Below, one piece after another: positions 169-64,000 of a stretch of DNA of 64,000 bases. The notes beneath the pieces were generated by a model, which searched no databases, was not told the origin of the DNA, and saw only the letters and a program-made list of their open reading frames with translations. The stretch is from Brachyhypopomus gauderio (taxonomy: Eukaryota > Chordata > Actinopteri > Gymnotiformes > Hypopomidae): NCBI RefSeq assembly GCF_052324685.1, contig NC_135218.1, positions 15,291,858 through 15,355,857 on the forward strand. The letters are read 5' to 3'. Both the position numbers and the translations under genes were made by a program. Every line of letters begins with the position of its first letter. The stretch's first letter is position 1.

Positions 169-7633
<7,465 letters not shown>

Positions 7634-20154: not shown

Positions 20155-23100
20155 TCACTCGGCCTTCAGGGCGTACAGGACGTCGTCCTGGCTCACGTTG
20201 AGACGCACGCGGAGAAGCAGGTCCAGGCGGCTGGGCTCCAGCAGCAGCAGGCGGCAGGCGCCCAACCTCTGACACACGGCCAGGCTCTCGGACACGTTCA
20301 CCGGCTGTAGGCCCTCCACACGGCACAGAGCCTGGTGCTGCACAAGGACCTGTCCGGAAGGAGATTGGGGGGCGGGGGGCGGGGCAGAGTGAGAATGAAT
20401 GTCCTACATGTACGATGTTTTGTTATGAGTCACATGTTCATATGCGGAGGAAGTACCTGCTGAAACGTAGCTTCTTCCAACCCTAGCCGGCGAAATTCTG
20501 CGATCACCGCCCTCAAGAAGAGCTGCTCCTGCAGAGACGCACACCTGGAACAGCAAAGTCCAGCACCAAGGATCAGAACCGCAGAAACACCTTCCACAAA
20601 ACAGCCCCGGCGACGCACCCACGTCCAGACCTGATGGCTGTAATATAGGAAGAGGAGAACATCTCATCTAGCGCCTCCATCACATGAGTCATCCCGACCA
20701 AGCCGGTGCCGCCCTGCTGTCCGGCGTGCTCGCAGATCTCGGTGGCACGTCGACAGATGTCCAGACACCGGCGGGCATCGCCCGACAGGGCCGCCACCTG
20801 AAGTGGGCACAAACAAAGACAACCGTCACCAGGGAGGTGCTGGGCAGAACACGGACTTTATTATTCAAATCAGAAAATAGTTCTGCCTCCACAGAACCGA
20901 GTGCAGTACTGTAAAGTTACTGTAGTAGAGGATCGTCTGGCTGTACCTTCCTTGAGACCAGCTGAAGAGCATCTTCTTCAAAGGCCTTCACCCTGTTCAG
21001 CCGAGACGTGACGATCTGCTGCAGCTGCTTAAAGGTGTATGGTTGGAAGGACATGCGTGTCAGCCCCTGGAGAGACATGTGAACACACACATGGTACAAC
21101 ATACCAACCAAAGCATCAAACACGCATTTCGCTGCCTGGAAAATGAATCCATCTCAAATTCGCCACCATTTCAGCACTTTCAGAGTCCATTTCAAGCGAG
21201 TCTCACCAGGCGGCTGGCCACGCGGTTGATCATGATGCGTTCGGGCAGGTCCATCGTGTTGGCGATGGTCAGCACCACCAGGCGAGCGTGCCGTCTGGTC
21301 GGCCAGTCAAACAAATTATACATGACGTTCTGCTTCCTGGTCCACAGAAGGTCCAGCTGGGATAGAAGTGTTGAATACAGTATTGAACGCAGTGCAATGG
21401 CATGAAGAAGTTGAAGTTCTCCCCCTCCACAGGTGACCTACAGCTCACCTCGTCCACCAGCAGCACGGTGGTCTCCTTCTTTGGCCCGGGCGTGCTGAAG
21501 CTCTTCTCAAGCAGGGTGGCCGCGTGGTCTGCCGTCGCTTTCTGGTTCGTCAGTTTCTACGACAAGGCGCCAGTTGCCGGGCAAAGTTAAGGCGGGAAAA
21601 GGGTGGGAACCACAGAGAGCTTCAGCTGGAGTGAGCGCGCACCTGCAGTATCTGGACGTACGCCTGATGTGGGTCGGTCATCTTCATGCCGTTGATCTCT
21701 ACGAAGCGGAAGTGGGGCAGCTCTTCCTGCTCCGTGGCCTGCTGGAGAGACCTGATCACTTCGTGCACCGTGGCGGTCTTGCCCGTGCCAGGCACTCCTG
21801 AGATGTACATGCACCTGCATGAAAACCCCCCCCAAAACCCCAGCACATCCATCAGTGCACTTGCTGGGACTCGAAGGTCAGGGGTTTGCGAGGCTCTGCG
21901 TGTTGCTCACCCTCCAGTGCCGTCCATGATCTTGCTCTCCACAAAGCTGTAGATGTCTTGAAATTCCTGCTCCCGACATGGCAAGGACTCGGGAACGGAG
22001 GACACATGCAACCTGTCGATTTAAGAACAAAGAAACTGAGGAAAAAGCAAAGCGAAGACTACACGAGGATGAAGAGAGCAGACTGGCTTACAGCCTTCAT
22101 CCCAAGTTCTCCCATGATAGCTACATTTTCACTGGAAATGACAGGAGTGGAACCCGAGCGGATTCAGAGAGCGGATTCAGTAATGACAGATATTCCTCAT
22201 CACCACCCATCAGGACTTCCCCAATAACCAGCAGGGCCAGGCAGAGTTATGCCTTTATTTGGACATTACATTCAAAAGGCAAAAATCTTTCTTACTGACA
22301 AAAAAAAAAGGTCAACATTCCTACCAGACACCTTTAACTCTCAGCTGGCGTGACTGAAGTGTAAAGAGTGCAGGGAGGTTCTGGCCCACACTCACCTCGT
22401 ACGCGCTTCCTCCAGAACATTCCCAGGCATCCTGGCGGGCCGGCTCCTGTTCGGAATGCTAGGGTTGCCATGACGAGGTGTCCGGGGAGTGGGAGGGGCA
22501 GACTGCAGCACAATTAAAAAACGGCGCTGAGCGAACGCCTGCAGGGCTTTTGCTCTTCATTAAACAGGAGCGTCGCAACATCTCACACCTCATTAGTCAC
22601 AGTGAGAACCACAAAGCGGGAGGTGTGGACACCCCACAGCTCCTCGACAGCGCGAGACCTCCTGCCAACACACCCTCTACCTTTTTGCTGGGCGTTTTGC
22701 GCGGGGTTCTGGCCGACGCCCTGCTCTTGACGGTCGAGCGAGGCGTCCTCCCTCCCGTCCTGCGCCTGCTCCTCTTCGAGATGAACTCATCTTCGCTGTC
22801 CGTCTTGCACTCCTCTTCCTCCTCGCTGCTGCTCTCCAGGTCGATGGCGACGGGCGCAAAGGAGGCGTCGTCATCCGCATCCTCGCCGTCTGACTGCAGG
22901 TCGCCGTAGCTACTCGGCTGACTCCTACAATGTAGTTCACAAACACACTCAAGGGGGAGTTGCAGATCACGTTGTAAAGTTCTAACCAGCAGGACGGGTC
23001 CGAGACGTACAGCTGCAGTGTCTTGATACGGGCCGATCTCCTCCTGGAGGCAGCCGTGTCCGCACTCTGCACAGGTGAGATTTCATGTTCCTCTTCAGTC

Positions 23101-33346: not shown

Positions 33347-39787
<6,441 letters not shown>

Positions 39788-45156: not shown

Positions 45157-46963
45157 TCATTTGGTAAGTTCATTACACAACAAGCAGCTGTATAATGATT
45201 GTAAGGGGATATTCATGCGTGGGAACTGTCCGTTGCTTTCTTTGTCCATGTAACAGTAAAGATACATGAACACAGCAATTGCTGCCAACTAAAAGATGAA
45301 AGAGAGAGTAAAAATAACAAAAATTTGCTGATAATAACAAGTGCTTTTATAAACAACTTAACAACTTTATAAACAAGCTAATGTCATTTAATTCATAAAC
45401 TAAAACGATAATGCTCTCATTATGAATCTATTACATGCACAACATTAGTTAGGCATAGATGCAGCATAGCTAAATGTAGAACACACTTCAGTCAGTCCAA
45501 GAATTCAGCCTTACTGTAGCGAATGCTTTAAACTTGTATAATAAAGCGCTCTATGTTTAAAACCCACTTGTTGTTAATACATTTCTAAAAGGTTATTGTT
45601 GTTTTTCTTGACGTGCTGCTAGTTGTACCAGCATGAGTGACCAAGACTCACAGTTCCATTGTTCTACGTTTACCTTAAGACCATCAACGATGATGATATT
45701 ACTCCCACAATGAAGAGTTTTTTTTTCCTGCAGGATGGTAGTGTGAGCCACTTATAGCAGCCCTGGTGATGAAAACACAGTTTCCATAATCGTGAGTTCC
45801 ACAACTTTACAGCTCAGTGTTTATATCCCTTTATAAAAGCTCCGGTTCAGGTGAAAGCCTTGGGTTACTCTGCTGTGGTATTGGCTATTGTATGCTTCCA
45901 ACAATTCAGTCCATTTAGGGCTGTGCTCTCTCACCTTCGCTCCACTGTTCACTGCATTCTCCATCACAGATGCTTTGAGTGTGGCTACAGCAGCCAGCAG
46001 GGACGACTCCACTATGGGTCTGGGAGTAATAGGAATCACTGAAGTCCATGTAGTTTGTAAAGCCACTATAGCCGTCACGCATCCCAACAGGAGAGATGGC
46101 AGGTAGTTAGTGGCAATTATGCAGCTTACAGATACGAGTATGTGATGCTTTATGATAAGAATAAATTTGGGAAATTTATTTTACCGGGTTAATGTGCCTG
46201 TGCCTTCATGGGTACATGACTGAGTATTGATTCTTATGCACCAGGTGGAGTTTCATTACTCTGTCAGAGTCCCTATGGCAGTTTATTTAGCAGGCTAATT
46301 TTCACATTCACCTTTGCCCACTCACGTTGGCCTGCAGGGGCTTTGAGGAGGTGATCTAGTGTGGAAATATGACTGATGAATTTTTACACAGCCGCATAGC
46401 GAGCCGCCCCAGGCCTAGATCAATGTGCGCTGGTTTGTTTGGGTTTGGTGGCCGACCCGTAAGCACGCACGCGGTGTATGGTGAGATGTGTTTTGATTAG
46501 CCTTGACTTACCTTCGTCACGGTCATGTTGCACACGTCTGTGACTGCGCTGTCTGTCCCGCACTGCTGATACAGAACATAGCCCACGCCTCCAGGATGCT
46601 CTCAAACCAAACAGAAGATAGACAAAGTAGCAGCAGATAGATAAACAACACGTAGGCATAGGTTAAAATGACAGCATCAGTTAAAGGAACACAACGGTTA
46701 TGACCGGAATGGTGTGCCTGTACAGGAAAATTTTTGGTAGATGTAAAGGTGTCCATAGTCAACCAAAGCAAGTAAAGAAAACATAAAGATTATCTATTGT
46801 TGATCCTGATCACAGGCACATTTCCATATATATTGATGCTTCTGGTCGTCAAGGCTTCCACCAATTATATTTAATCGAATTATCATTTCATGCAGCAAAC
46901 CATATAAAGGGAAGCACTAATGTGGCAACTGGGTTAGCAAAAGTGTGCTGTTCTTTGTGTTGT

Positions 46964-46966
<3 letters not shown>

Positions 46967-47023
<57 letters not shown>
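46967..47023. repeat. (CT)n microsatellite
   Basis: About 28 CT units within the tspan1-like intron between exons 3 and 4. Confidence 0.95.
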
Positions 47024-47027
<4 letters not shown>

Positions 47028-50009
47028 TCTCCCCACATTAGTTGAAGTGCTGTGCTGTGCGAGAGAAACATTGAAGAGAAAAAAAAAACATAAATGTGCC
47101 ATTCTGTGCACCATCCCCCTCCGCCTCCCTTTGATCCTTCGCTCCCACTGTGTTATTTGTTGCAGTTTGGATTAATAAACCCTGATGAGTTTCAATCACA
47201 CAAAGCCTCATTTGCAGGAGAGCCGGCGAAAGGGAGAGATGGATGGACCAGGGGTGTGGGGGGGTCAGTGTGAGCCATGCTCCGCCAGCCTGGGGGGGAC
47301 ATGCAGACAAACCGCAATTAAAAGACCTCCCTCCGTCCGCCATGAAGAAAGGAGAGGGACGCAGATCAGTGCGGTTATTATGCGCTCGCTAGGCTAATCC
47401 ATCACTGTCTCTAGCCATCCCCTCCCATCTGCAGCCCGGCCCGGTGCTGTGGGGAGTGTGAGTCTGCTAGAAGCCCAGCTGAGCTCAGGCGATGCTAAAC
47501 AAGGTTGGGTGCAGCTCACAACCACCCAAGACCTCAGACCTGCTGAGAGAAGCATATTCCATAACCGTAAGAACAAAGGACAATACGTACGACATTTACT
47601 CCACACTAATAGGAACGTGCCATGTTACAAACAAAGGCAACACGTTTTATTTGCAACACAGGATCCATTTATTTGTTGGATTATTTTCTATTCGTTTCTC
47701 CTCATCAATTTTTACTTATTATACACATACACATATTATACATGACTGTAAGTTTGATATGTGCGATGCCATTCTACATGACACTTCCTGGTTAATACCA
47801 GCGGAACATCTTCACAAACAGTAAACAAACTGTTCCTGAAGGAGTCTGTGGACTTTGTTATCTCTGTCTTGAGACATTAGGATTCTGACCTGCTTTCTGC
47901 GGTTAGAGTGCAGCAGGGAACAGGAGTGGTGAACTGCAGTATATGAGGGACAGAAAAATGTTTCCACTCCTTCCATTCTTTTATAGATTATTCAGATGTA
48001 TGCATATATTATTCAAATTCACAGTATTGTGATATTGTTATTCCTATGGAATCCATACTCTACAGAATTCCAGATGAAGCAGCTGGCTGTAGACGAGCTT
48101 ATACAATGTTCAAACAACAATTCTGTTTGTCAGTGTAATGAATAAATGGACAGTGGGATATGAATGATGGTGATATGAACAGCACAATAAATGTGCTTGT
48201 GCAAGCCGAATGTTCCCCCTAACGACTCAAGGTGTCTATAATTCAGACATATGTCCCTCTCTCGTCCTTCCTGTGGCCTAGTGAACGGTCTTAGGAGCGT
48301 CTGATACCACAGTCTTTCACTCAGACTGCTGTCTAAGTGACGCTCAGGGAGCAGTCTGATTTCCTTTTTGCAAAAATACCCAGTGGACCATTAAAAAAGG
48401 TCCTGGACAGACATTCCCACCACGGAGCAGGGAAAACATGTCCGCTACGTCCATCACAGGCTTGGGTAAACTTGGGTGGGGCAAAGGACCATTCTCAGAG
48501 ACAGCTGAACATAAATACATCGTAATATTCAAGAGTATTCCACCACTGGCTTTGACACCTGATATGCATTAGCTGAGATTGTTCCACAATGACAGATTTA
48601 TTCGGTAATTTGACCAAAAAGGTTTTATTTTCTTTATTAAAATGCATTATTCTCTTTAAATGCCTCCAATAACTCACTCAGAATTGCTGTAATTATTATA
48701 CATTTCAGTAAATGGGCATAGCTATATATGTAAATAGCCTATTTTGCATATAAAATGCTTGAACTTCAGTGGTAGAGCAGGATAAATTGCTGGGAGTGAG
48801 AGTGGTGGCATAAAGCCTGGAGCAATCATCATTAAGAGGCTGAATGTAGTGGAGCATCCACCAACGTCCCTTATTTAATAATGGGCAAAATATGATATGA
48901 ATTTGCAGAGACATAAAACAGGCTGGAATGAGAGATGTAGGAAGAGGTGAGCGTCTCAGAGCAAAACTTACTAATGAAGAACAGGTCAGCACAACCACCA
49001 CAGTCGTGGGCTCAGAGATGAAAACCAGCAGAACAACGCAGAAGAACTGCATGCAAAGGCGGAGAAGATGCATAATGAGGCACGGTCTGTATTACCAGGG
49101 ACGTAACCGTATAATCGAGTTATCACACCTTTAAGACTATCTGGAGCTAAAGGGCAGCGTGTGCTGTTGTATTGGAGGATGAAAAGCTCATTCTGATTGA
49201 AAAGTAATGCTTATTTTATTCATATGTATGTAGTATCGCTTGTTAAGGTGACTGTTTTCATTACCGTTATCAGGAGACATTTACTCTCTTTTTCAGGCGG
49301 CACAGGAGCCCATGACCCCCAGCAGGCGATGATGGCAATGAGGAAGACGGCCACACTGACAGAGGAAAGCACATCCGTGGAGAAGATCTCCAGAACGTGC
49401 AGGAAAGGACCTCCACCCACACTCAGGGATAGACCTGCTCCCTGCCAAAACCACCCATTTAGTTGTGGGTTTATTTTTCAGAGGCAAAACATATGTAGTT
49501 TACATCATTAAAAACCTTTATATGATTAAAGTTAATGTAAAAAAAAAAGTTTAAATGGTGATTCAAATTTAAAGGAGATGGATGATTAGAAGCACCAGAT
49601 TCTTCCCTACCCATTTCTAGTGTCAAACACTGATAAAAGCAATCATTCCAGACATGGTTAATTAGCATGGAGAACACTATATCTCCCCTCAGGCACTACT
49701 GGAGAAGGTTCATCTTAGCCTTGGTAAGACTACACTGGCCATGGCGCCAGCCAGCATATCTTTCACACTGCAGCCAGCTCTGTGTTAGGACCTTTATAAG
49801 CCAGTGTCATGCCCACACAGGATAATTGTCTCTTTGTCACATTTTCCCATGACCTTCCTTTACTCACCATTTATATTAGTATTTCATGCAAGGAGTCCTC
49901 CTAAGTGATCTGACATTAGAGCCATTCAGGAGCGGAGACACGAGCACTGCTACACAGCTAGATCATTAATTAATGGTAAAAGGCTCAGTAAGAAACATAA
50001 AAGGTGTCT

Positions 50010-50056
50010 TTATATGTCACTCTGGACAAATGCATCTGTTAAATTAAGTAAAGGTA
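50010..50056 (+). mobile_element. degenerate SINE tail fragment
   Basis: 'tatatgtcactctggacaaa' followed by 'tgcatctgttaaattaagta' is a diverged form of the same teleost SINE tail seen at 6228-6436. No clear head is visible. Confidence 0.4.
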
Positions 50057-52328
50057 ATAATTTTTTTGACACTTTTAAGTGCATAAAGAAGATTTTAGGA
50101 GAAATTTAATTCTTATGGTTCCCCCATCCAACGCATCTTTGTGCTTGTTCAATGTTTCTTTGTTAATTCCACATTTTTGCAGTACTGTTTTCTTCCTTCA
50201 CCAATCAAATGTCAAAAGTTTAGTGCTCTGGAGAGTATTTTACTTTCGTTTTGCGCAAGATGAATTGTGTTTCAGTGACACAAGGGTTAATGAGAGGGTT
50301 GATGTCAGTGTGCTGGTTCATATAAGGCACTGTAACCATCTCGGAAACCTGACAGTTCATGTCAAACGCAATCCCAGCTGTCACGCCGGCTCCTCTGCAA
50401 ATCAGCTGCCTGTCAGATGAAGCCCGTGTGACTCTGCTGCCTCCACGCTGCCTCCACGCTGCCTCTGTGATGCCTTCACATATTTCCTCTTCACTTCTGC
50501 AGCTTCCAGAATAGTCTGCTCGTTTGCCACATGACTTTCTCCCACCTGCTTTTGATAATCAGCACAGCTCTTGGCAAATCAGATATGACAGGCATATCAC
50601 CCTGAACTTCTCATCTCCAAACGCTTCCTGCTGCCTTTCATAATTGCTCCTGGCATTCTCCTTTTCTTCCATGAGGCAGGGCCTGATCCTTGTAATGAAA
50701 TGCCACGTGTGGGGAATGTGGTGTCAGGAGAAGATGCATAGAAGAGATTATATATAAATCAGTTTATGGGCCAGAAAAAGTCCGGAAATGAAAGAGGGCT
50801 GGGGTAGAGGAGGGACAGCGCACTGCTGCCGGGAGAACGGACTGCCTTCGCACATCACAAGGCCACGGAGATCCCCGCAGGAGAAAGATCCAGATGAAGA
50901 GGGGAGAAATAGAAACTCCCCCGAAGTAGATATGCCCGAAGGACACGCGAAGTAGATAAGAATGGCGCAGACATCCAAAGATAGCAGGAACCAGTAAACT
51001 CATGCATCCAAGGCATGAATGAAATGTCCATTTTTACCTGACTTTCACCAGGGATTCGTTTCTATAAGCATGTAAGGAGGCTCTGAAGTGTTCTCATTTG
51101 CTCGTATGTGGCAGTGACTGTGATGGGGACAGAAGTGCAACACCAACTCCCATTGGCTCTTTAGCTGCCGACTGCCTGGACCCGGACAAATGGGGGTGTT
51201 TTAGAGCACTAGACAGCAGCAGGCAAAACGTGGCACTAGGGCTTCTTCCAATGTCACCGCCAACCTTCATTGTATGTTTGGTCGTACCACACACACGAAT
51301 GGCATTTAGATAATGTAATGCAGAACAATCCATAGCCCTAAAGGGTCACTAATTAACATTGGACTTAAGGAATATAATTTCTAAATATATTAAGCATCTA
51401 TTAATAATGTGTTAAACAATGCCAAGACAGCTTTTGTAGACTTTCAAAGTAAACAACAATACCATCCAAATCATATGGCATACAAATTTGGTAATAAAGC
51501 ATGCTATATGCTGTAGTATTCTCAGAATTGAATTGATGAAATGGTATATAAATATCACTTTTAGGAAACCACACTGTCCATTATGCACGACAATATTGAA
51601 AGTATACCATAATGGGCAAGAGGTTTAACAGTATTAGAAAAAAGCCCCCTAACAACAGTGAAGTTTCCCTTTATTTTGCCAGTGTCATTATGTAGGTATA
51701 ATAGCTAACAACAATTGTGGAAAAATTGGAAGCTTTAAAGTTAATGAGATGAAAATTGCTGTATGTAAGAAAGTGTGATTGCCATGGTGGTGTAAGCTTC
51801 CACACAGGGTTGTGAAGCCCACATCCCTTTTGTTATATTTGTATTATCGCGGGTGTAAACTCCTTTGTTATGTGTTTGTATTATCGTGGGTGTAAATTAC
51901 TTTCTGCACATTCAGAGGCAGACTGAATGACCTTAATACTTTACACACAACATAAAAATCTTGGGTAATAAATATAGAAAAGCAATTACTATTTTAAACA
52001 CTGCCACCCCCACACCCCCAACCCCCCCCCCCACACCCCCTCTTAGGCTTATAGGCAAACATGTGATGATGAAACAGAACATGCTTGCCAAGATTAGCAA
52101 GTTGAACAAAGCCATCATAACTCTGACAAATTTGAAGGTGGCCATTTTAGCCTGTGAACATAAGCAATAAAAACAAATCCATGCATACTCTTTTCTCCTC
52201 TTTACATAGGCATGAGAATTTGTGAAATATAGTAAGAAATTGGTATTTAAATGAATAATAATAAAAAGAAACCCACCTGTTTGATTAGAATGTGTTTATG
52301 TCTGCTACGGGGAAAGTAGGTGAGAAAA

Positions 52329-52332
<4 letters not shown>

Positions 52333-52402
<70 letters not shown>
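52333..52402. repeat. (GA)n microsatellite
   Basis: About 35 GA units, about 190 bases upstream of the tspan1-like start codon. Confidence 0.95.
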
Positions 52403-52409
<7 letters not shown>

Positions 52410-54642
52410 AAAAGATGCTCACACAGGTGACATGGGTGTGGTTAGGTCATGCTAGAGTTCGTTGGAGCAGTAAGGTAGCTGTTTGCCAGCAGGCTGGTTC
52501 AGTGTCTGGCTCCAGCCATTGAACGACCATATCAATGAAACACCCAAGCTGGCTCACACAGGGTGATGAGGACCTATTTAAGTATCACCTACACCCACAA
52601 GTCAGTCACGGGCAAATAAAGAAATAGAAAATGTGACAATATTACTGAAGAAATAGTAATATCTTAAAGCCCAAAACTTAATTTGTTCAGTATCAAAGTA
52701 GTTATCACTGCACACATCAGCACAACATGCTCAAACTAGGCAGCGTTTATAGTTAATAGGTCATGTTTGTTTGCGCCTTGATTTCCACAGAGTAACAGCT
52801 CCTCGGGTTCCTTTGTGTGTTTTCCTTTGTTCTTTTGTGCACAGCTCCCGATGAATTTCCTATTTCCACCTGTAGAGGACAGTATTGCAACACTTCACTA
52901 AGGCACTAGGCTTCACTAATTCACCATTGTGCTGTCTGCGGTTCATGGAGTTGATTGATGTCCTCTCGGAGGAGGACAGCGTCTTTCTTTGTCCAGTTTT
53001 CGCTGTGAGAAATGCCCAGCTCAAAACAAAGAGGTAATCAGATAAGCCTGTGGAAGACTCAAAGAAATGGGCAGTGACCTAGTGTAGGCAGCGGGTCTCC
53101 GCAGCTGCAGCCAAATGAATACCTGTTTCTGTTTAAGATAACAAAGCATTTGAAAACAACTTTTGGGCTACAGCTGACACTATTATTTACCGTAGTTAAA
53201 AACAAAGTTATATAAAAAAAAGTTTTGGGGTCCAGAGGGGAAAAAAAAGATCTTGGGAGAGTATAGATTACATTGGGAGTAGCTGTTCTTCACCCTGTGT
53301 TAGAAGAAGTAGTCGGGTTGTGTGAGGTTCTGGTGGTGCTGAGGCTGATCGGAGCGGAGGGTGGAGTGCTCACTCTCCACCTCGTACCTGCTTTCCTCTG
53401 CTCTTCTCTCCTCCAGCCCACTCTAATCATCTTCAACCAGCATTCCAACACAATTTCATTCTATCACCCCTATACCCCCCATCCCCCTCACCATGTCAGT
53501 ATGGGACATGACATCCATAGTGGTGGCCCACAGGTATAAAAAAAGAGGAAAGATGGATTGCTTGGCACCACCATGCTGAAGTTAAATGTATATATGCTAC
53601 AGTCCTCTCTATAATGCCTCTTTAATGGTCCTATTGTGAGTTATGCCAATCTCAGCCACACCATCATTAAATCCCCAGCTCTTAATCTTAGTGAGAAAAG
53701 GACCCATCATGCTTTGCACTACTGGTATTAAACCAGTTAATAGTTTCCATGCATAATCCAGTACTTAGGGGAAGAAAAAACGAAATTATTATTTTGGTCA
53801 TTTTCCATCATCCCGGTAACAAGAAGTGGAGAAGCTGTGATGCCGACAGAGCCAGTAAAACATGGATGTCTATAATGAGTTTGGCGAGATTGACCATTAC
53901 CTGCTTGCTCCAGGGCAGGTGCGTAGGTGATAGATCTCTGGTCGTGCCTCATGAAGCTCCTTTTCCCTGGGACAGGGCTCTCTTTATAGTCTACCCAGAC
54001 GATATGACCCTTAAACCCGCAAAGCAAGTGGCAGAGCTCTAATGGAGAAGAAAGCAGACAGACCAGAGCAGACGAACACAGAACTGCGCTTGTTCTGTCA
54101 CAGGAGTAGACCGGTGGAAAATAAGCGAGAGGAAATACAAAGTTATGATGTCATAAAGAGAGGAGCACTTTTAAAAGGACCTCGTTCCCTAAATCATGAT
54201 CCAAGTCCCACCATCCAGCTGATAATTGCACATTATCCAGAGCCATAAAAGAGTGGCTGCAGGCGGAAGACACATCAGGCACTGTTTATGAGGGAACGGA
54301 CACAGTGACACACGGCCCTGCTACAGAACTCGCTGTAATGACTGTTTGTAAACATATAATGAAGGTCCACTTGTCTGGCTTGTGGTACCATTGAGGTGAG
54401 AAATTGCAATAATAGTAACACCCCAAAGCTGTGGTGTCTTCTCCTAAACACGGAGGCTCCCCTGTGACCTCTATTGTCTTTCTGAGTCTTAATTCATCAC
54501 TGGCAGCTGTAAGCAAATGCATATTAATTTTAGCGGGTCCTCGGTGCCATAGGCGACCGGGCCAATAAATCAGAACAGGAGTGGTGCCTAATTGACTCCA
54601 GTTTATGGAAGACAGCGAGAGGAGAAGATCGAGACAGTGAGA

Positions 54643-54707
54643 TAGTGTGTGTGTGTGTGGTGGAGGGGGGGGGGGGGGGGCAGAAAGAGAGAGAAAAGGA
54701 GAGAGCA

Positions 54708-54748
<41 letters not shown>
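54643..54748. repeat. compound (GT)n / poly(G) / (GA)n repeat
   Basis: Short GT run, then a G run of about 17 bases (about 54664-54680), then imperfect to perfect GA repeats to 54748. Confidence 0.9.
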
Positions 54749-54751
<3 letters not shown>

Positions 54752-55289
54752 CTGGGCTAAGAGGCACAGGATCCATCTTTCCTTTGTTCTTTGTATTGCT
54801 CTTCAGACGGCCTCTGCAGCACAGAACATGCCGAGCTATCCTCACGTTCCTCATGAAACCTTCATAAGCGTGTCTGCAAATGTGTTCAATAAAGTCGCGC
54901 CTATGTTTCCTGTGGTCTCTCCAGAGATGCATACTCACCACATTACATTAAGCCCCAATATCCTAAATATCCTGAAATAATCATTTGCATAAATATATGC
55001 TCATGAACTGCTATATGTGGCAGCAGACGAGGTTGCAGGGATTGTGATTGTCTCTGAGGAACAAGCAGGAGGAACAGAATAAGCCCATTAGTGTAAACTA
55101 GATTATTGCATTAAAAATGTATTCACCTCAGCACATTTGATTTTGCTGTGTTGCCTGATGATGTCATGGTAAAGAGTCGTGAAGAAGATGATGTCCTATT
55201 TGATCTGAATATTCTGAAGCACAAATGATCCTCAGGGTCAGGTTATGGGTCGGGTCACAATGATATCTGAAATCATTGTTGGGGACCGA

Positions 55290-55437
55290 AGGTGCACAGA
55301 CTGAGTCTCTGGCGGTGCAAGCAGAGGAAGGTGCTAGCAACACCAAGGTCATAGGTTCACCTCCAAAGGGAGCACACAGACTGTTAAACTGATAAATATA
55401 TGTAAGTCCCTCTGGACAAGAGTGTCTACCAAATGAA
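55290..55437 (+). mobile_element. tRNA-derived SINE, plus-strand copy, degenerate
   Basis: It has the B-box-like 'aaggtcataggttcacctcc' and the tail 'tgtaagtccctctggacaag' plus 'agtgtctaccaaatg'. Both are diverged versions of the SINE in the tie1 intron. The head is too eroded to place its 5' end. Confidence 0.55.
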
Positions 55438-56019
55438 AACCTCCTGCAGCGTACGCTGAACCCTAATGCATTAAACTGCACATGGCCTATTAATCTGCTC
55501 TGTTGTTACCGCTGCTTTCTTTTGACTCATTTTGTGTTTATTTGTTTGTGCAATTGCTCCAAAAAGAAACATATCCACCAAATATGCCAAAACAACCTTC
55601 AGTCAAAGTTATGTGCAATTCACATGTTCAGTTTCTTGAAAAAAAGATTTGCACTTGGTTAATTCACTTATAGAGTTGGCTGAGTATCCATGGGTAAAAA
55701 ATAAGTCTGTGGCTCAGTAGATCACTTGACTGCTCTGAATAGCAGAGTTAAGAATCTGCACTTGGTGTCCATATGTTAAATACTGAACCTGATGAGATCT
55801 TCTGCAGAGTTCAGGTTATGCAAATTGCTTTTAGAGTGCAGAAGAGAACTGTTCTCTGAAAAATCCTCTTTATTATTCATCTCATGTCCTTGTGTTAAAA
55901 AGAACTAATTAGATTCAATTCTTTGAAAACATCAGTAATTTCACAGTTCAATAAAACCTTCACAACAGTTAAATCATTTACTATTATATATTCTTGCTTG
56001 AATCGCACTTAGACGTTTT

Positions 56020-56090
56020 GAGTTAGTTCCCTATGTAATAAATTAGAGTTAGTTCCCTATGTAATATTTGAGTTAGTTCCCTATGTAATA
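56020..56090. repeat. tandem repeat, 24-26 bp unit, 3 copies
   Basis: Three copies of 'gagttagttccctatgtaat' starting at 56020, 56046 and 56070, with 4-6 variable bases between copies. Confidence 0.9.
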
Positions 56091-56868
56091 TGTTCCAAAA
56101 TGACAGATGACGAATTTGCTCCTTTCAGAGTTCCAGTCATTGCCGAGCTTAGCACAGAACACCAGCGGTTCCCTCCAGTGATAACACATCCGGTTACATC
56201 CTCAAGTTCCCTTATCCATGGTCAATTTACAACAGTAGACTTCACAACAGGAGAACGGTGGAGGTGAGCTTCTGAGGTCGTCATTCCCGCCTGCGACGAG
56301 ACCGTGAGCTCAACCTCTTTCCAGTCGTTCCCAGTCTTCTTTACACGGTAGATGCCGTTTAGGGCAGAGAGGGTCCAGCTGGGGACCTGAAGATGCTGGA
56401 ACACCTCCCGGTTGGCAGGGGGGCTGCCGGCGATATGGGGCCACTCATGCGGTAAATGGCTTGGGGCAGCGCCGAGCTGAGCGTCCCCGGTGTGCGGCTT
56501 TCCTTAACGGCGCCGCCCCCTTTCACCTGCGGAAATGTTAACTACGTCCTCGGGAGCGGCGATGCAGAGAGCCGGCCGGCGGCCATATTTCATGCAGATG
56601 GCCGGGTTAAATATGCCGACCAGGCATGCGATGGCGAGCCACCTTCCTCTCCTTCTGGCTTAAATCTTCTCTTAGGTTTTTTTTTTCGTCTCTCCATACC
56701 TGGAGGCCAATCGCCTCTTTGAGTTTCATCAAGTATGTGGAGCATCTCATTGGACCGCTGGAGCTTTGGGAAGGTTAATGTGTTGGACGATTGTAAATTG
56801 TTTGGCTATTTGAGTGGACATAGAGCAGGAGGGGGAGATGAACCGTAAAATTTGACCACCTTCACAAT

Positions 56869-56891
56869 CCCCCCCCCCCCCCCCCCCCCCC
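56869..56891. repeat. poly(C) tract
   Basis: Run of about 23 C in non-coding sequence. Confidence 0.9.
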
Positions 56892-57559
56892 ACACTTTTT
56901 CTCCAACAAGTTCCTCATTTTTTTGGTCTGTTTCCCACTGCTGCTCTCTGTCTCTGCCAAACGCTGGTGGAGAACTGGCTGAGATGAAGAGAGGAACACC
57001 GTCCAGATGAGCAGCAGTTAGCGCCCTCACAGACAGGAAGTTTCAGCCAAAGAACCTGTTCCATTACTCAGGGCCCATGTTTGGGAGAGTTACACAATTA
57101 CACACAGTTCCCTGTCAGGCACAGGCGCAGGCTGTCCTAAGAAGTAAAGGCACAGGCAGGCAGTTCTAATAAATAACGAGAAAGGCAAAGGCTGAGTGTG
57201 ATTTGGTGATAGCACAGCTCCACATTGTTTCATGTTACTAATAAAACACTGAGACATTTTATGTCCTTTTTGGTTTGGGTTTTACACATAACGGGCCACT
57301 TCGGCGAGATGGCTATAACCAGTGGAGCCTTTGTTCAGTGGCTTATCAGCAAGTATTTTTCAAATGAAATAGACCTTGATATGAAAGAATGACCTAATAA
57401 TGTAGTAATGGCCAAATTATGAGAACAATATGTCACACTGTGTGGTGAATGTGTGCGTCATTTTATATCTGCCGCTCTCCTGGAGAATTGCACTCTGCTT
57501 CATTTAATTAACTCTCACCCGCTTTCTCTTTCAGCCTCTTCCCCTGCACTCTGCCCATC

Positions 57560-57562
<3 letters not shown>

Positions 57563-57592
<30 letters not shown>
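57563..57592. repeat. (GT)n microsatellite
   Basis: About 15 GT units in non-coding sequence. Confidence 0.93.
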
Positions 57593-57595
<3 letters not shown>

Positions 57596-57877
57596 GGCTG
57601 TTGCTCTACAGAGAGTGACATTGCCAGTACTATTGGAGATCTATGAATGGCCCGAGGCGGCCGTAGCAGTCATAAGGCTCTCTTTCTGATATCATCTGAA
57701 CAGTTAAACAAGCCCAAGGAAGTGGGAGAGGCGGATCACAAGGGTGCAATTCCCTGTGGCCTGAAACATACGTCCACACACACAGAGTGAAACGCTCCGG
57801 GACATTCCGCAATTCGTTCTCTCTCAGAAAGAAAGACTTTGTAATGAGTGAGAGTGTTTATGAGAGTCAGTGAAGAG

Positions 57878-57908
57878 GGAGAGAGGGAGGGAGAGAGAGA
57901 GAGAAAGC

Positions 57909-57942
<34 letters not shown>
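57878..57942. repeat. imperfect (GA)n repeat
   Basis: GA-rich run with occasional GG or AA interruptions. Confidence 0.9.
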
Positions 57943-58319
57943 TGTTGACTCCATTCCCATTTCCAGCACTGGCCTGCTCAAACCACTATCACCTCGAATT
58001 AAAATTTAATCTGACGCAGCATGGTGTATATCTGTAAAATGGAGATTTATTATTTATTGGACATACAGTGCTAGCTGAGGCTCATTAATTATATGTCATA
58101 TATACATCCTCTTTATATAGACCCATATCGCAGATATATGAAACTCGTAAAAATGCAGGCGAGCCGAACGGATGGGGAACCCCAGAGCAATGCCAGGTGC
58201 TTTCGGCGGTCATGTGCGCTCCTCGCCTGCCAAACACTTCTTTGTCTTTCTTCCCGCTCTGTGCCAGGGCCCCTTCTCCCCAAACCGCTGTCCTTGCTGC
58301 ACCGTGCGTGCGCGCCCTC

Positions 58320-58620
58320 TCAATGATAATACCCTCTCCGCTTCTCCGCTCAACAGATGGACCGCTGCCTCATTAACTTTAATACATCCAACATCAATTA
58401 AGAGGGAGTTAATTGGGATGCTCGAAAGGTGATTGCCAGGCAGCGCGGTGCGCACGAAAGCCCCGCGCTTAATAAATGAGGCTCGTCAAGCCGAAATATG
58501 CCAGCAGCGGCGTTGGCGATGCCCATCACGAGCGTCCGCCCTGGCTGGGATTAGTGCCGCCGCTTCCCCGCCGCGCCTGTGCTTTGTTTCTTTTCTTTTC
58601 CCTCCATCATTCACGTGGGG
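58320..58620. promoter_or_regulatory. possible conserved non-coding block
   Basis: Unique-looking sequence with clustered homeodomain-type words (CATTAACTTTAATACATCC; CATCAATTAAG; GTTAATTGGGA) next to a GC-richer segment. This composition is typical of vertebrate developmental enhancers. I cannot test conservation, so it is only a pointer. Confidence 0.22.
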
Positions 58621-58654
58621 AGGAGCTAACCTTGCCAGAGCGCCATTAGCTGCA

Positions 58655-58665
58655 CCCCCCCCCCC

Positions 58666-58697
<32 letters not shown>
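58655..58697. repeat. poly(C) plus (CA)n
   Basis: About 14 C followed by about 14 CA units. Confidence 0.93.
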
Positions 58698-58700
<3 letters not shown>

Positions 58701-60641
58701 CACCACTGCTGCTCCTTCACTGGGTTGCACTTTTATTTTACAAAGGTGGATAATAATAAACTAACTAGTTAGGGGTACGTGTAAAACCACACAAGAATTT
58801 ATTATTTTCCAGAGACTACACTTTTGGCTTGTTTTTGAAGTGTACTTGCGAGAAAACCACTGTTTTTGTTGTTGTGCTTGTACTTTTACATTTGCCCATC
58901 TGCTCTAAATTCTAGTTACTTCAGACGAGCGCGTTTGCCGCCTCTCCCTACGGTTCCCACACGCTTGGCAAATCGTACAGCTTCTCAGTCTCCCCGAGGC
59001 CGAGCACAGGGACAGTATTCTCCTCTGTTCTGGAGCCGTTGTCCTCTGGTGGCCTTGGACCCTGGAGACGGTGCTCGGGGACGTGAGCGAGCGTTTGCTG
59101 ACTCAGAGCCTCACGGGTGCTGCCGTCTCCTGGAGCAGGTGCTGATGGGGTGGCGAGATCAGAGGCTAGCACCACACGAGCTTCATTAAAGAGATGAATG
59201 GGTTTGTTTGCTGTTTGTAACAAATGTAAACACGTGGAGACAGAGAGGATGGCGTAAGACAGGCAAGGCGAGGCGTTCCACCGCTCAAAGGGTCCGCCTG
59301 GGTAAGCAGGCAGCGGAACAAATCTTGAAAGCTTCTTTTGCTCTTACTGTGGGGTTGCGTGATGCAAAAATAATATTAAAACATCATGGGCCTTGCTTTC
59401 TTGATCTTGCTGTAGTGTGGATCTCTGTGATCCCTTTGACTACATTGAGAAGATATTGGGGAAAGGAAAACATTTTAAGATTTACTTCAAACGTGATTTC
59501 TGTGCGGGCTGCATGTGTGTCATGTGATTAACACGGAAGACCATATGATTAACACTTAATACTGGAGTAGCTAACAAACCATGGGTGTTTTGAGAGTTCA
59601 GAGCTCTTCGTTGTGCACTTCATAGGAAGACATCAGATATCAGAAAACATAAATGTCAGATACGTTTGGTTTTATCAGCCCTTGAATAAGGCCTGTCCCC
59701 CAAGTCTTGAAGAAAAGACCATGTGACATTTTTCACATCTGTATGGGGCTTTAGAGAATCCTTGAAGAGCCTCAGATAATCACGCTTGGACAAAGCTCCA
59801 AACACCAGTAAGACGCGAGCCTAATGGTTCTTCAGCAGAGATGATCTGAAGAACCCATGTAGGCTCTGTTTAGTGCTGCTTCTTTTAAGAGTGTCTACTG
59901 CGTGTGCATGTTTCCAGTCCGACAGACCTTTAAGGATCTCAGAGGAGGGGAACCTGGATCAAACCTTTCCATCTATGTACTATTGGGTAAACTGCCCTTT
60001 GCAGTACCTACTTGTCTATGAATAACTAATCCTTTATTACCCATTTAAAAAGGAAACAACCATTAACCTCTGGAAACTGAATAAATAAACAATGCCACCA
60101 GACTGTATGCCCAGCGTCAGCGCCACAGTGCCTCTGGATGGATGACTCATTACACCTGCCCCCCCAGCCCACCCCCCTTGATGAATGTGGCGGACCACAC
60201 CACTAAAACTGACCTGCTACCTACTACTTCACCATGGGGAAATTTGCATGTGCACTGACTGTAAAATTGAGAGCTCCCACAGAATCAAGTCTTAATCATG
60301 CAAGTCTAATGATCCTCCATTGGGATGAGATTCATTTTATTCTCTTTCCTCCTGAATCTGATTGTATTTATAATAGGGCATGGATGGGTAGAGAGGCTAT
60401 AAGCCAGATGAACTCTAACCTACAGCCAGAATGTGGAACCACAGACATCCTTATGTTTCCAGACTACAGTGCAGAAAGTTGATCAGAGCGTTGAAGCCGT
60501 GAACACTTGCTCACTGATACAGCCAACGCACTTTAACCCCATCAGGTCAAAACTGACCAGCTTCCTTTGGAATCAACATTGTGTTAAGTCACACCGAGCA
60601 TTCTGTCAATTAGTTGGGGTGGCATGGTGGCACAATTGCTA

Positions 60642-60692
60642 GATGGATGGATGGATGGATGGATGGATGGATAGATGGATGGATGGATGGAT
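60642..60692. repeat. (GATG)n tetranucleotide repeat
   Basis: About 12 units of GATG/ATGG with one GATA interruption. Confidence 0.93.
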
Positions 60693-61435
60693 GCATTTCT
60701 GGATCGAAACCAGTCAGTCAGTTATATGGCATGAAGTGCTTTCAAATGATTAAGTGCTAGCTGATACACAATGACAAGAAAAACAGATAAAGTGTTTATG
60801 TAGAGTGCCAGAATGGAGTGAGAACAAAAGAGCTGCAGAAACAGCACACCTGTGTGTTGTTTTTGTTGTTTTTGCAAATGACCACATAGGGGCGCTGTGT
60901 ATCACAGTGAGGAGAAAGGCAAATTCCCAGCCTCAGCACAGAATGTTTCATCACACAACATGATTTCAGTTAAGCTCACACACAATGGAAAATATCTTGG
61001 AACCACACATATGTGGCCCATGTAGAAAAACTTTCAGTAAGCTGAGGTTGTAATAAATAGCAGCTGATTTTCAGTATATTCTCAAAGTGAAACTGAGGGC
61101 CCAAAAGATAAAGTTAGAAAGATAAACTTAGAATGTGGAAACCTTGACTTGCAAGCTAAGGAGAATGTCATTTTATGTATGTTGTGTGTTTTATGTATGG
61201 TATATATTTTATGTACGGTGTGTACTTTATGTATGGTAATTGTAAAGACCTTTATTTCCACCAGTGGGAAAACCAGAATCATGTATTATCAAAGATGGAC
61301 ATGAATATTCTTTACTGCGCCTGTTCCTAAAAGCAGCAGGCAAACGTGGTTGTGTGAATGTAGCCCTGCCTGCTCGCTGTCTCTGAGATCTGGGTGAAAG
61401 AGAAGCAGTGGGAAGGGGGGGTTCAGTGTTATGCA

Positions 61436-61436
<1 letters not shown>

Positions 61437-61494
<58 letters not shown>
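61437..61494. repeat. (TG)n microsatellite (left arm of an inverted pair)
   Basis: About 29 TG units. The complementary (CA)n tract starts about 120 bases downstream. Confidence 0.95.
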
Positions 61495-61496
<2 letters not shown>

Positions 61497-61614
61497 TGGG
61501 GCCGAAAGAGAGCAGCCAGTGTGATGGCACTGAATGTGGGTCAGAGGTATGTTCAATGAACCATCAGACCAAGTCTGGGAAAGAGCAATGACTCTAGGCC
61601 AGTATCACACACCG

Positions 61615-61616
<2 letters not shown>

Positions 61617-61685
<69 letters not shown>

Positions 61686-61734
61686 GCACACACGCGCATA
61701 CACACATGCGCACACACGTGCTCACACACACACA

Positions 61735-61768
<34 letters not shown>
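61617..61768. repeat. (CA)n then (GA)n compound microsatellite (right arm of an inverted pair)
   Basis: CA repeats with one CAAA interruption to about 61681, degenerate CA/CG repeats to about 61734, then about 17 GA units to 61768. Confidence 0.93.
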
Positions 61769-61771
<3 letters not shown>

Positions 61772-63239
61772 GTTGTGTGAACTCGGTGATGGGCGTACAG
61801 AAGGGGGAGACTGAAGGAGATAGCGGTGGAGAGGTGATTGAATGAATCATAATAAGCACAGTTTGTTACAACAAGACAACAGGTCTCCACAAACCTTACA
61901 AGGACAGATCAGGCAATTAGCCACATTGTGAGCAATGGGCACACCACATCTCTCTCCTTCTTCCTCTTAATCTCTCTTTTTTTCTCTCATCTGCAGTTTC
62001 AGAGCAGGAGATAAGCACATATAAACAGAGATAAAAGAGGATGTTACAGAGCTGAGATACATGACAGAAAAAACAATCAGCTCCTAGCCATATGCATGAC
62101 CCCTTCTTCCTCAGAAAGATTAAAATATCTCCTCACTGGGCACATACTGCGCTGGGTTTAGGCTTTGTTTAAACACAGAGATCACATCCAGCAACAGCAC
62201 ATCCAGGCAGCTTCGTCCACACACATGTAACACGCTGGATACAATTTTGAGTGTATTGTGCTTTATGGTATGAAGAATTGCATAATGCATTTTGCCCTCT
62301 CAGTATAGACTATTGCAAATTGTTGCATAATGTGTCCAATCAAGACCTACTTTTAACCCTGTGTTGTTCACAATTTTGTATGCTTTATAAATCATTATGC
62401 CTCTGGACTCCTTTTTATAAAAGTGAGTGTTTATATATGAGCTTCAGAATTCAATTCTGGTTGTTTTTGATCATGTGCTTTACTTTTAATATGTAATATT
62501 AATATGCCCTTTACTATACTGAACTACACAATAAAACACATGTTCTATTTTACCATAAGGAAGTCTTCCCACCAGAGGTCAGACTTACTTAAAGCATTAT
62601 GTAAGGGTTCATTCTCTTTCTTGCATTTCCCTCTCCATTTCATTTTTTGTTTCCAACTTAGACTTTCTCCTATTCACTCCTTTTATCTGATGGCTATTTT
62701 TTGCCTGGCAATCTAATATTGAACTTTGTATCCAAATCCCAAACACTCTGCTTTTCTACGGTGCCTGTGATGTGTGACTACAGCTCCGTGCCAGGGAGCA
62801 GGGACATGCCTGACCGATCCGTCCCCTTCCCGTCCCTCTGCGAGACGTGTGCTCGTGTGGCTGTGCGCTTTGTACGCTTTGAACTCCACGCGCTGAATAA
62901 TGCATGTAGACGTGAAACACCCAGCACCAGAACCAGCTGAGCTGCGGCAGCACGGGCCGCCTGTGATCTGGCTCAGTGCCACTTCAGTGTACACAGTACA
63001 TCAAGACCGTCCCCGAGGAACCTCCGAGTCGTAATGTCTGCCGTGTTAGGGTCTGCTGGGGTTTACTGCCATTTAGTGCCATTTAAAGAGACATTTGCTG
63101 CCACTGGAACATGCTAACGAACGCCACACGCCTGTCCTGAGGCCCAGGAACATGACTTCAGGTGCTTAAACAGCCGGTGAACAGCACTGCCCACACTGTT
63201 ACACACACCAGGAAAATAAAATGTTAAAAAAAAAAAAAA

Positions 63240-63660
63240 ACTCTTTGGGCCAAACCTTAATTGCCATTAAAATCATCATGAATTTAAATGCAAATGAATC
63301 TGCGAGGGAAATGAAGGTGCAGGGGGGGGAAATGTAACCTTTTTAAATTGGTTAAAGCCAATCAGGTAAACTTTTTTTTGATTGGCAATCCTGTAAATGA
63401 TCCTAATCAGCATATTAGGTCGAAATGTCTTGCCTTGCTTTCTTTTGTTTCTGCCTGAAGCCAAACGGTATCAGCTGTCATTCACCGGACTGAAGGGAGG
63501 CTAACAAGAGACTCGTGGCCTAGAGAGAATGTCAGTAAATAATAAAACTCCTGAGGTCAACAATGAATATTTAAAATGACCTCTGTATCAAATTAGTCTT
63601 GACCTTGAAAATGCACTTCTGCCTGGTGAAGCTGAAAGGAATTTTAATTAGCTATTTCTC
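63240..63660. promoter_or_regulatory. possible conserved non-coding block
   Basis: AT-rich, repeat-poor sequence with many ATTA, CCAAT and ATTTGCAT-like words (AATTGCCATTAAAATCATC; AATTGGTTAAAGCCAATCAG). It looks like a candidate enhancer. This is a composition-based guess without comparative evidence. Confidence 0.22.
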
Positions 63661-64000
63661 GAGCTACTACTGGGATTCCTGTGAGCTCCTGAGCATGGCT
63701 AGCAGGGTCAGCAGGATGTATGGTGTTGACGTGTAGGGATGAAGTATTTTAAAGATGAACGTTGCGCCCCGACTTGAGAAAAAATATGTATGAATTAAAA
63801 ACTCCTGACAAGGAGCAGATGACGTCCACATGTGCATCGATGGCATTCGTCCTGCATTCAGACGCCGAACTCCGACCTCCGTGAACGCCTCCCTGTTGCA
63901 TAAAGAGCCTCGATAGCACGCGTGGACCAAAGGAAACCTGAGTGCCAGGGAGTCTAATGGAAAAAGATAGCGCTGATTAGCGGCGGGCCCGTGCGGAGGC

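Follow-up and report, generated by a model that had tools for sequence, protein, structure and literature searches.

The 64-kb stretch of DNA analyzed here (C8:15291858-15355857, hereafter the window) very probably carries a unitary pseudogene, in which the orthologue of vertebrate TSPAN1 is decaying in place at its ancestral tail-to-tail position beside pomgnt1. Seven tspan1 exons follow one another in order on the minus strand from 52145 to 45157, each visible in three-frame readings, and the introns between them lie at conserved positions with splice signals that are mostly good. The exons of the remnant are as follows (positions are those of the window).

52089..52145, minus strand: exon 1, 57 nt, ending at the conserved place
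49265..49448, minus strand: exon 2, 184 nt by homology, with a good donor
48972..49046, minus strand: exon 3, 75 nt, open, with both splice sites good
46512..46600, minus strand: exon 4, 89 nt, with a frame break near 46588
45935..46076, minus strand: exon 5, with the acceptor AG absent at its start and a good donor
45674..45762, minus strand: exon 6, 89 nt, with good acceptor and donor
45157..45288, minus strand: exon 7, with a homologous LAAIAVFMYLYC (45288-45253) and a normal start

An initial annotation of this DNA had placed seven tetraspanin exons here and had called for a frameshift-aware alignment, and both the three-frame readings and such an alignment bear out the order and coordinates of all seven. 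We employed a purpose-written spliced, frameshift-aware protein-to-DNA program with a human TSPAN1 sequence as the query, which itself matches PF00335 at 175 bits as well as eight PDB tetraspanin sequences. Residues 1-238 of this query align along the remnant with a score of 179.9 and with 85 of 230 matched residues identical. By comparison, when the first 42.5 kb of the window were divided into 18 overlapping segments of 8.5 kb and read on both strands, none scored above 55. The locus itself scored 41 on its plus strand and 50 when reversed, the reversed protein scored 50.5, and 20 shuffled TSPAN1 proteins scored at most 58.5 against the locus.

A tblastn search of the 64-kb window with the human protein ranked exons 5, 2, 1, 3, and 7 within its top seven matches (E values of 6e-5 to 0.8), the remaining two being chance matches; exons 4 and 6 were not recovered by this search. 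Homology extends along the whole protein in the joined native-frame read-through, which matches PF00335 at 39.2 bits (E = 7.7e-10, cut-off of 32.1). A second version of the read-through matches with an E value of 3.3e-9, the two versions falling at 37-39 bits. Of nine pieces of the remnant scanned against Pfam, the eight individual exons gave no match and the joined piece alone did; a PDB search using the read-through likewise returned no match.

The plus-strand gene pomgnt1 has its end at about 39790, and the minus-strand remnant occupies the positions from 45157 upward. In zebrafish, TSPAN1 and pomgnt1 are syntenic, according to the available part of one study (PMC1851013), and position and synteny together support the proposal, already made in the initial annotation, that tspan1 occupies its ancestral tail-to-tail place.

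Intact relatives elsewhere in the genome (796.5 Mb in 840 contigs) provided the standard for judging each exon. A tetraspanin search of this genome returned 59 exon-level matches, from which 30 were taken as loci. The search with human TSPAN1, which scored the best candidates only, gave at least 23 matches, 20 of them taken as loci; none is the remnant, and the best lie on contigs C63 (51% and 50%) and C40 (49%). When 49 overlapping loci on both strands were classified against a panel of eight human tetraspanins (TSPAN7 and TSPAN15 left out), the loci whose best human match was TSPAN1 all lay on C40, C63, or C12. Six intact genes were found there.

Contig C63, gene C63a: intact, 121/234 residues identical to human TSPAN1
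Contig C63, gene C63b: intact, 111/215 identical to human TSPAN1, first exon not found in the stretch examined
Contig C63, gene C63c: intact, 73/233 identical to human TSPAN1
Contig C40, gene C40a: intact, 113/233 identical to human TSPAN1
Contig C40, gene C40b: intact, 68/223 identical to human TSPAN1
Contig C12, one gene: intact, 91/230 identical to human TSPAN1

Among the loci on these three contigs, only C40a, C63a, and C63b reach an identity of at least 48% to human TSPAN1; two CD81-like loci show higher identity over short stretches. All 35 introns seen in the six genes (two on C40, three on C63, and one on C12) are in phase 0 and, apart from small shifts, at the TSPAN1 positions, and each inner exon is therefore a multiple of three. 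The genes on C63 (C63:342665-404400) form a tandem array of at least three TSPAN1-like genes, of which C63a and C63b are near-identical over long stretches and C63c is much more divergent. On C40, the two TSPAN1-like genes adjoin (C40:1320859-1326031), and both are free of lesions. A genome devoid of any TSPAN1-like gene was considered and rejected, given the intact genes on C40 and C63 that are about half identical to human TSPAN1.

Comparison of the junctions of the remnant with those of C63a and C40a reveals lesions in most exons. The exon 1 donor (52088-52087) is GC (gcaagc), where the intact paralogues have gtaagt. At the homologous start of exon 2, the AG that precedes it in the intact genes is missing, an extra G is present in the first codons, and a two-step frame excursion occurs near 49324-49295. 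These lesions in exons 1 and 2 add to those of the initial annotation. Note that GC donors can work and that an inner AG, seven bases into exon 2, would yield an in-frame exon of 177 nt. Exon 4 had been described as changing frame, and its length of 89 nt is confirmed, compared with 87-126 nt and multiples of three for its counterparts in the six intact genes. However, this frame change alone is not decisive because a second, tandem AG two bases further on (tttgagag followed by CATCC) would restore the frame.

For the lesions that lie downstream, no comparable way out was found in the native frames. The intact paralogues begin exon 5 with ag followed by CTGAAATGCTGTGG or ATGAAGTGCTGTGG, whereas the remnant reads GACGGCTATAGTGG, without an AG. 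From 46073-46065 on, GGCTATAGTGG stands where TGCTGTGG is expected, and the Cys-Cys pair is gone. The junction comparison thus upholds the earlier observation that the ELKCC part of the CCG motif is missing, and the remnant does not carry the CCG motif that functional tetraspanins have in the large extracellular loop. Exon 5 also has a frame break near 45944, and exon 6 has one near 45690 that leads to an out-of-phase join with exon 7. The exon 5/6 and 6/7 junctions, previously described as out of phase, are indeed so: by our count 130 nt separate the conserved GGC of exon 5 from its donor, and exon 6 measures 89 nt, compared with multiples of three in 6/6 intact genes. After its homologous part, exon 7 remains open to a stop at 45157, with a tail longer than that of human TSPAN1.

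The exons were also aligned after joining, since in the spliced alignment a spurious short intron had masked the exon 4 shift. In the joined alignment, three frame shifts (exons 4, 5, and 6) were placed at penalties of 15 and 20, and five at a penalty of 12, the two additional ones falling in exon 2. Six were placed at a penalty of 9 and 12 at a penalty of 6, where alignment noise starts. The spliced native exons accordingly give no single open frame, with three to five frame shifts at penalties from 20 to 12. Disabling lesions at the ancestral place, with introns kept, are one mark of a unitary pseudogene, and the remnant shows them. In such a history, function would have been lost through splice-site and frame mutations (exons 2, 4, 5, and 6 and the exon 1 donor), followed by decay in place. 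Because exon 5 lacks an acceptor that keeps phase with exon 4 and each of the two junctions after it shifts the frame, the product would be missing both the large extracellular loop and the fourth membrane helix, and probably no functional protein is made.

Position, score, and trees support identification of the remnant as a putative TSPAN1 orthologue, although the alternative tree is only marginally worse and is not rejected (p-AU of 0.052). The main competitor, that the remnant is instead a decayed copy of the TSPAN1-like group on C40 and C63, is improbable. It draws on the constraint that unites the remnant with the C40 and C63 genes, which costs only 5.4 log units (p-AU of 0.052, with a long remnant branch), and on the union of human TSPAN1 with those genes (p-AU of 0.065); the alternative with the C12 gene gives 0.004. 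It is also favored by the fact that C63a (121/234) and C40a (113/233) are more identical to human TSPAN1 than the remnant is. Nevertheless, the remnant reaches a score of 179.9 against human TSPAN1, whereas none of the six genes of its own genome takes it above 100.5, and its aligned identity is higher with human TSPAN1 (79/207) than with C40a (64/208) or C63a (62/209). Both trees pair it with human TSPAN1: the support is 96/95 in the tree of 15 rows and 99/97 in the tree of 10 rows, from which five divergent rows were dropped, and the C40 and C63 genes stand apart in both. Moreover, the remnant sits where zebrafish has TSPAN1, as far as the available part of PMC1851013 describes it. In a genome search with the remnant, with the best candidates scored, 6/6 matches listed were its own exons (exon 7 being absent from the list), and no second copy was found among the matches listed. 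The best matches of the search with human TSPAN1, on C63 and C40, are placed as paralogues by the trees.

We consider it very improbable that the locus is a rearranged, still expressed tetraspanin-like gene that leaves out exon 4 and reads exon 6 in a different frame. Such a GT-AG path does exist, free of frame shifts and stops (score of 163.4), and the third-position GC of the remnant is still coding-like at 0.60 (pomgnt1, 0.64; orc1, 0.80; region overall, 0.42). However, the exon-4-skipping product reaches only 20.2 bits against PF00335, below the cut-off of 32.1, whereas the native-frame read-through reaches 37-39 bits, and such a gene would abandon exon 4, as well as the hydrophobic reading of exon 6, despite their good splice sites. 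A frame-keeping GT-AG model can thus be threaded through a pseudogene, and automatic annotation might accept such a model.

The possibility that the lesions reflect sequence quality was weighed with two neighboring genes as controls.

34158..39772, plus strand: coding part of pomgnt1, 559 aligned codons, 18 GT-AG introns, no lesion
20158..22014, minus strand: C-terminal part of orc1, 367 aligned codons, 7 GT-AG introns, no lesion

For pomgnt1, 458/559 codons are identical to the human protein (a reference in which ten residues are unknown), with no frame shift or stop, and orc1 residues 494-861 are lesion-free with 278/367 codons identical to the reference. Together, the two neighbors present 0 lesions in 926 control codons and 25 introns. 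The earlier statement that five other genes of the window read without a frame error therefore holds for the two that were aligned (most of pomgnt1 and residues 494-861 of orc1). Two further genes of the window are putatively tie1 and mpl. Pfam identified fn3 and a kinase domain in the tie1 candidate and PRP38 in prpf38a, and found no domain in three mpl pieces tried. All 80 simulated intact orthologues (mean identities of 35 and 41%) were lesion-free, each simulated gene having just two in-frame indels along with strong splice sites. Two intact tetraspanins of the same genome that are more distant from human TSPAN1 than the remnant (68/223 and 73/233 identical; 30-31%) also have 0 lesions. 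Distance from the human query is therefore not the cause of the lesions.

That an intact tspan1 was garbled by errors of sequencing or assembly is the least probable explanation. Two frame breaks are indeed single short indels and exon 6 has a run of nine A, but the control codons and introns of the neighbors are clean, the loss of the exon 5 acceptor and the altered CCG motif are not simple homopolymer errors, and the aligner places the exon 6 shift near the donor, away from the A run. With several independent lesions in the remnant versus none in two neighbors, six tetraspanins of the same genome, and 80 simulations, decay in place, which the initial annotation had also favored over noise, appears much likelier than sequencing noise.

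The age of the decay can be bracketed loosely. By our count, the remnant has 5-7 indels in about 700 nt, and its aligned frames contain 0 premature stops in 214 codons, a count favored by the choice of frame because the aligner avoids stops. In simulated neutral divergence, no stop arose in 3.5% of runs at 0.2 substitutions per site and in 9% at 0.15. Because of the indel count and the absence of stops, divergence since constraint ended would be very roughly 0.05-0.15 substitutions per site, an uncalibrated range. The decay may thus be fairly young, and we infer only in a rough sense that the loss was "recent."

Several other features of the window were recorded. A CT microsatellite in intron 3 (46960-47031) pairs with a GA microsatellite that lies a short distance upstream of exon 1 (52341-52412), the two forming a long inverted pair, and intron 3 also includes a GC-rich, non-repetitive-looking stretch (47090-47500). 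At the gathering threshold, Rfam yields a single match in the window, a UnaL2 LINE 3′ element (RF00436) at 6241-6294 on the minus strand (57.7 bits). Between 53001 and 64000, no Pfam domain exceeded the cut-off (plus frames of 53001-63000 and minus frames of 54001-64000), with one mucin-like match below it. The first exon of PIK3R3, sought with a fragment of the sequence, was not found in the window.

The decay of tspan1 at this locus belongs to an ordinary class of events and has left well-preserved traces. The available part of one report on vertebrate tetraspanins describes gene losses that outweigh gains (PMC2965184); TSPAN1 does not occur there as a whole word. For fish, the accessible portions of three further papers give the following: in zebrafish, tspan1 marks mantle cells and cells of the amplifying lineage in the lateral line (PMC6363392); in grunts, its dN/dS exceeds 1 in every pairwise comparison (PMC6398375); and in salmon with moderate gill damage, it is among the annotated upregulated probes (PMC8996064). 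A search by title and abstract found no description of a fish tspan1 pseudogene in the literature covered, which is a part of the whole.

The initial annotation had proposed that this lineage lost a conserved epithelial tetraspanin. For the orthologue this proposal has moderate support; as a statement about TSPAN1-like genes at large it does not stand, since close relatives survive intact on C40 and C63, so that the loss is limited to the orthologue. The surviving paralogues may cover the role of tspan1. A fuller scenario, in which an old sister group of TSPAN1-like genes (tandemly expanded on C63, with members also on C40) assumed the role of the orthologous tspan1 as the lineage lost it, is conceivable, although we hold it to be rather doubtful. 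If it is true, a comparison of related species could date the loss, because every exon survives, and set it against the C63 expansion. A conserved tetraspanin lost with every exon readable is a datable event, and a fish without tspan1 but with intact TSPAN1-like paralogues could reveal functions that they share.

Set against known systems, the remnant resembles vertebrate TSPAN1 in its seven exons, their order, their place beside pomgnt1, and the identity of its aligned residues to the human protein (85/230). It differs in its frame breaks, lost acceptors, and lost CCG motif, and no working tetraspanin would be expected from it. The TSPAN1-like genes on C40 and C63 share intron positions and phases with the remnant and, like it, have TSPAN1 as their best match among the human proteins compared, but they are lesion-free, form a separate branch of the tree, and lie on other contigs. 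A further parallel is the channel catfish, for which the available part of a 2015 paper (PMC4372039) reports tspan1 as absent from the corresponding conserved neighborhood; decay of the kind described here may explain such annotation gaps. In both fish the same gene is missing from the same conserved neighborhood, but the catfish case is an absence from gene prediction, whereas here a remnant with its exons is still in place.
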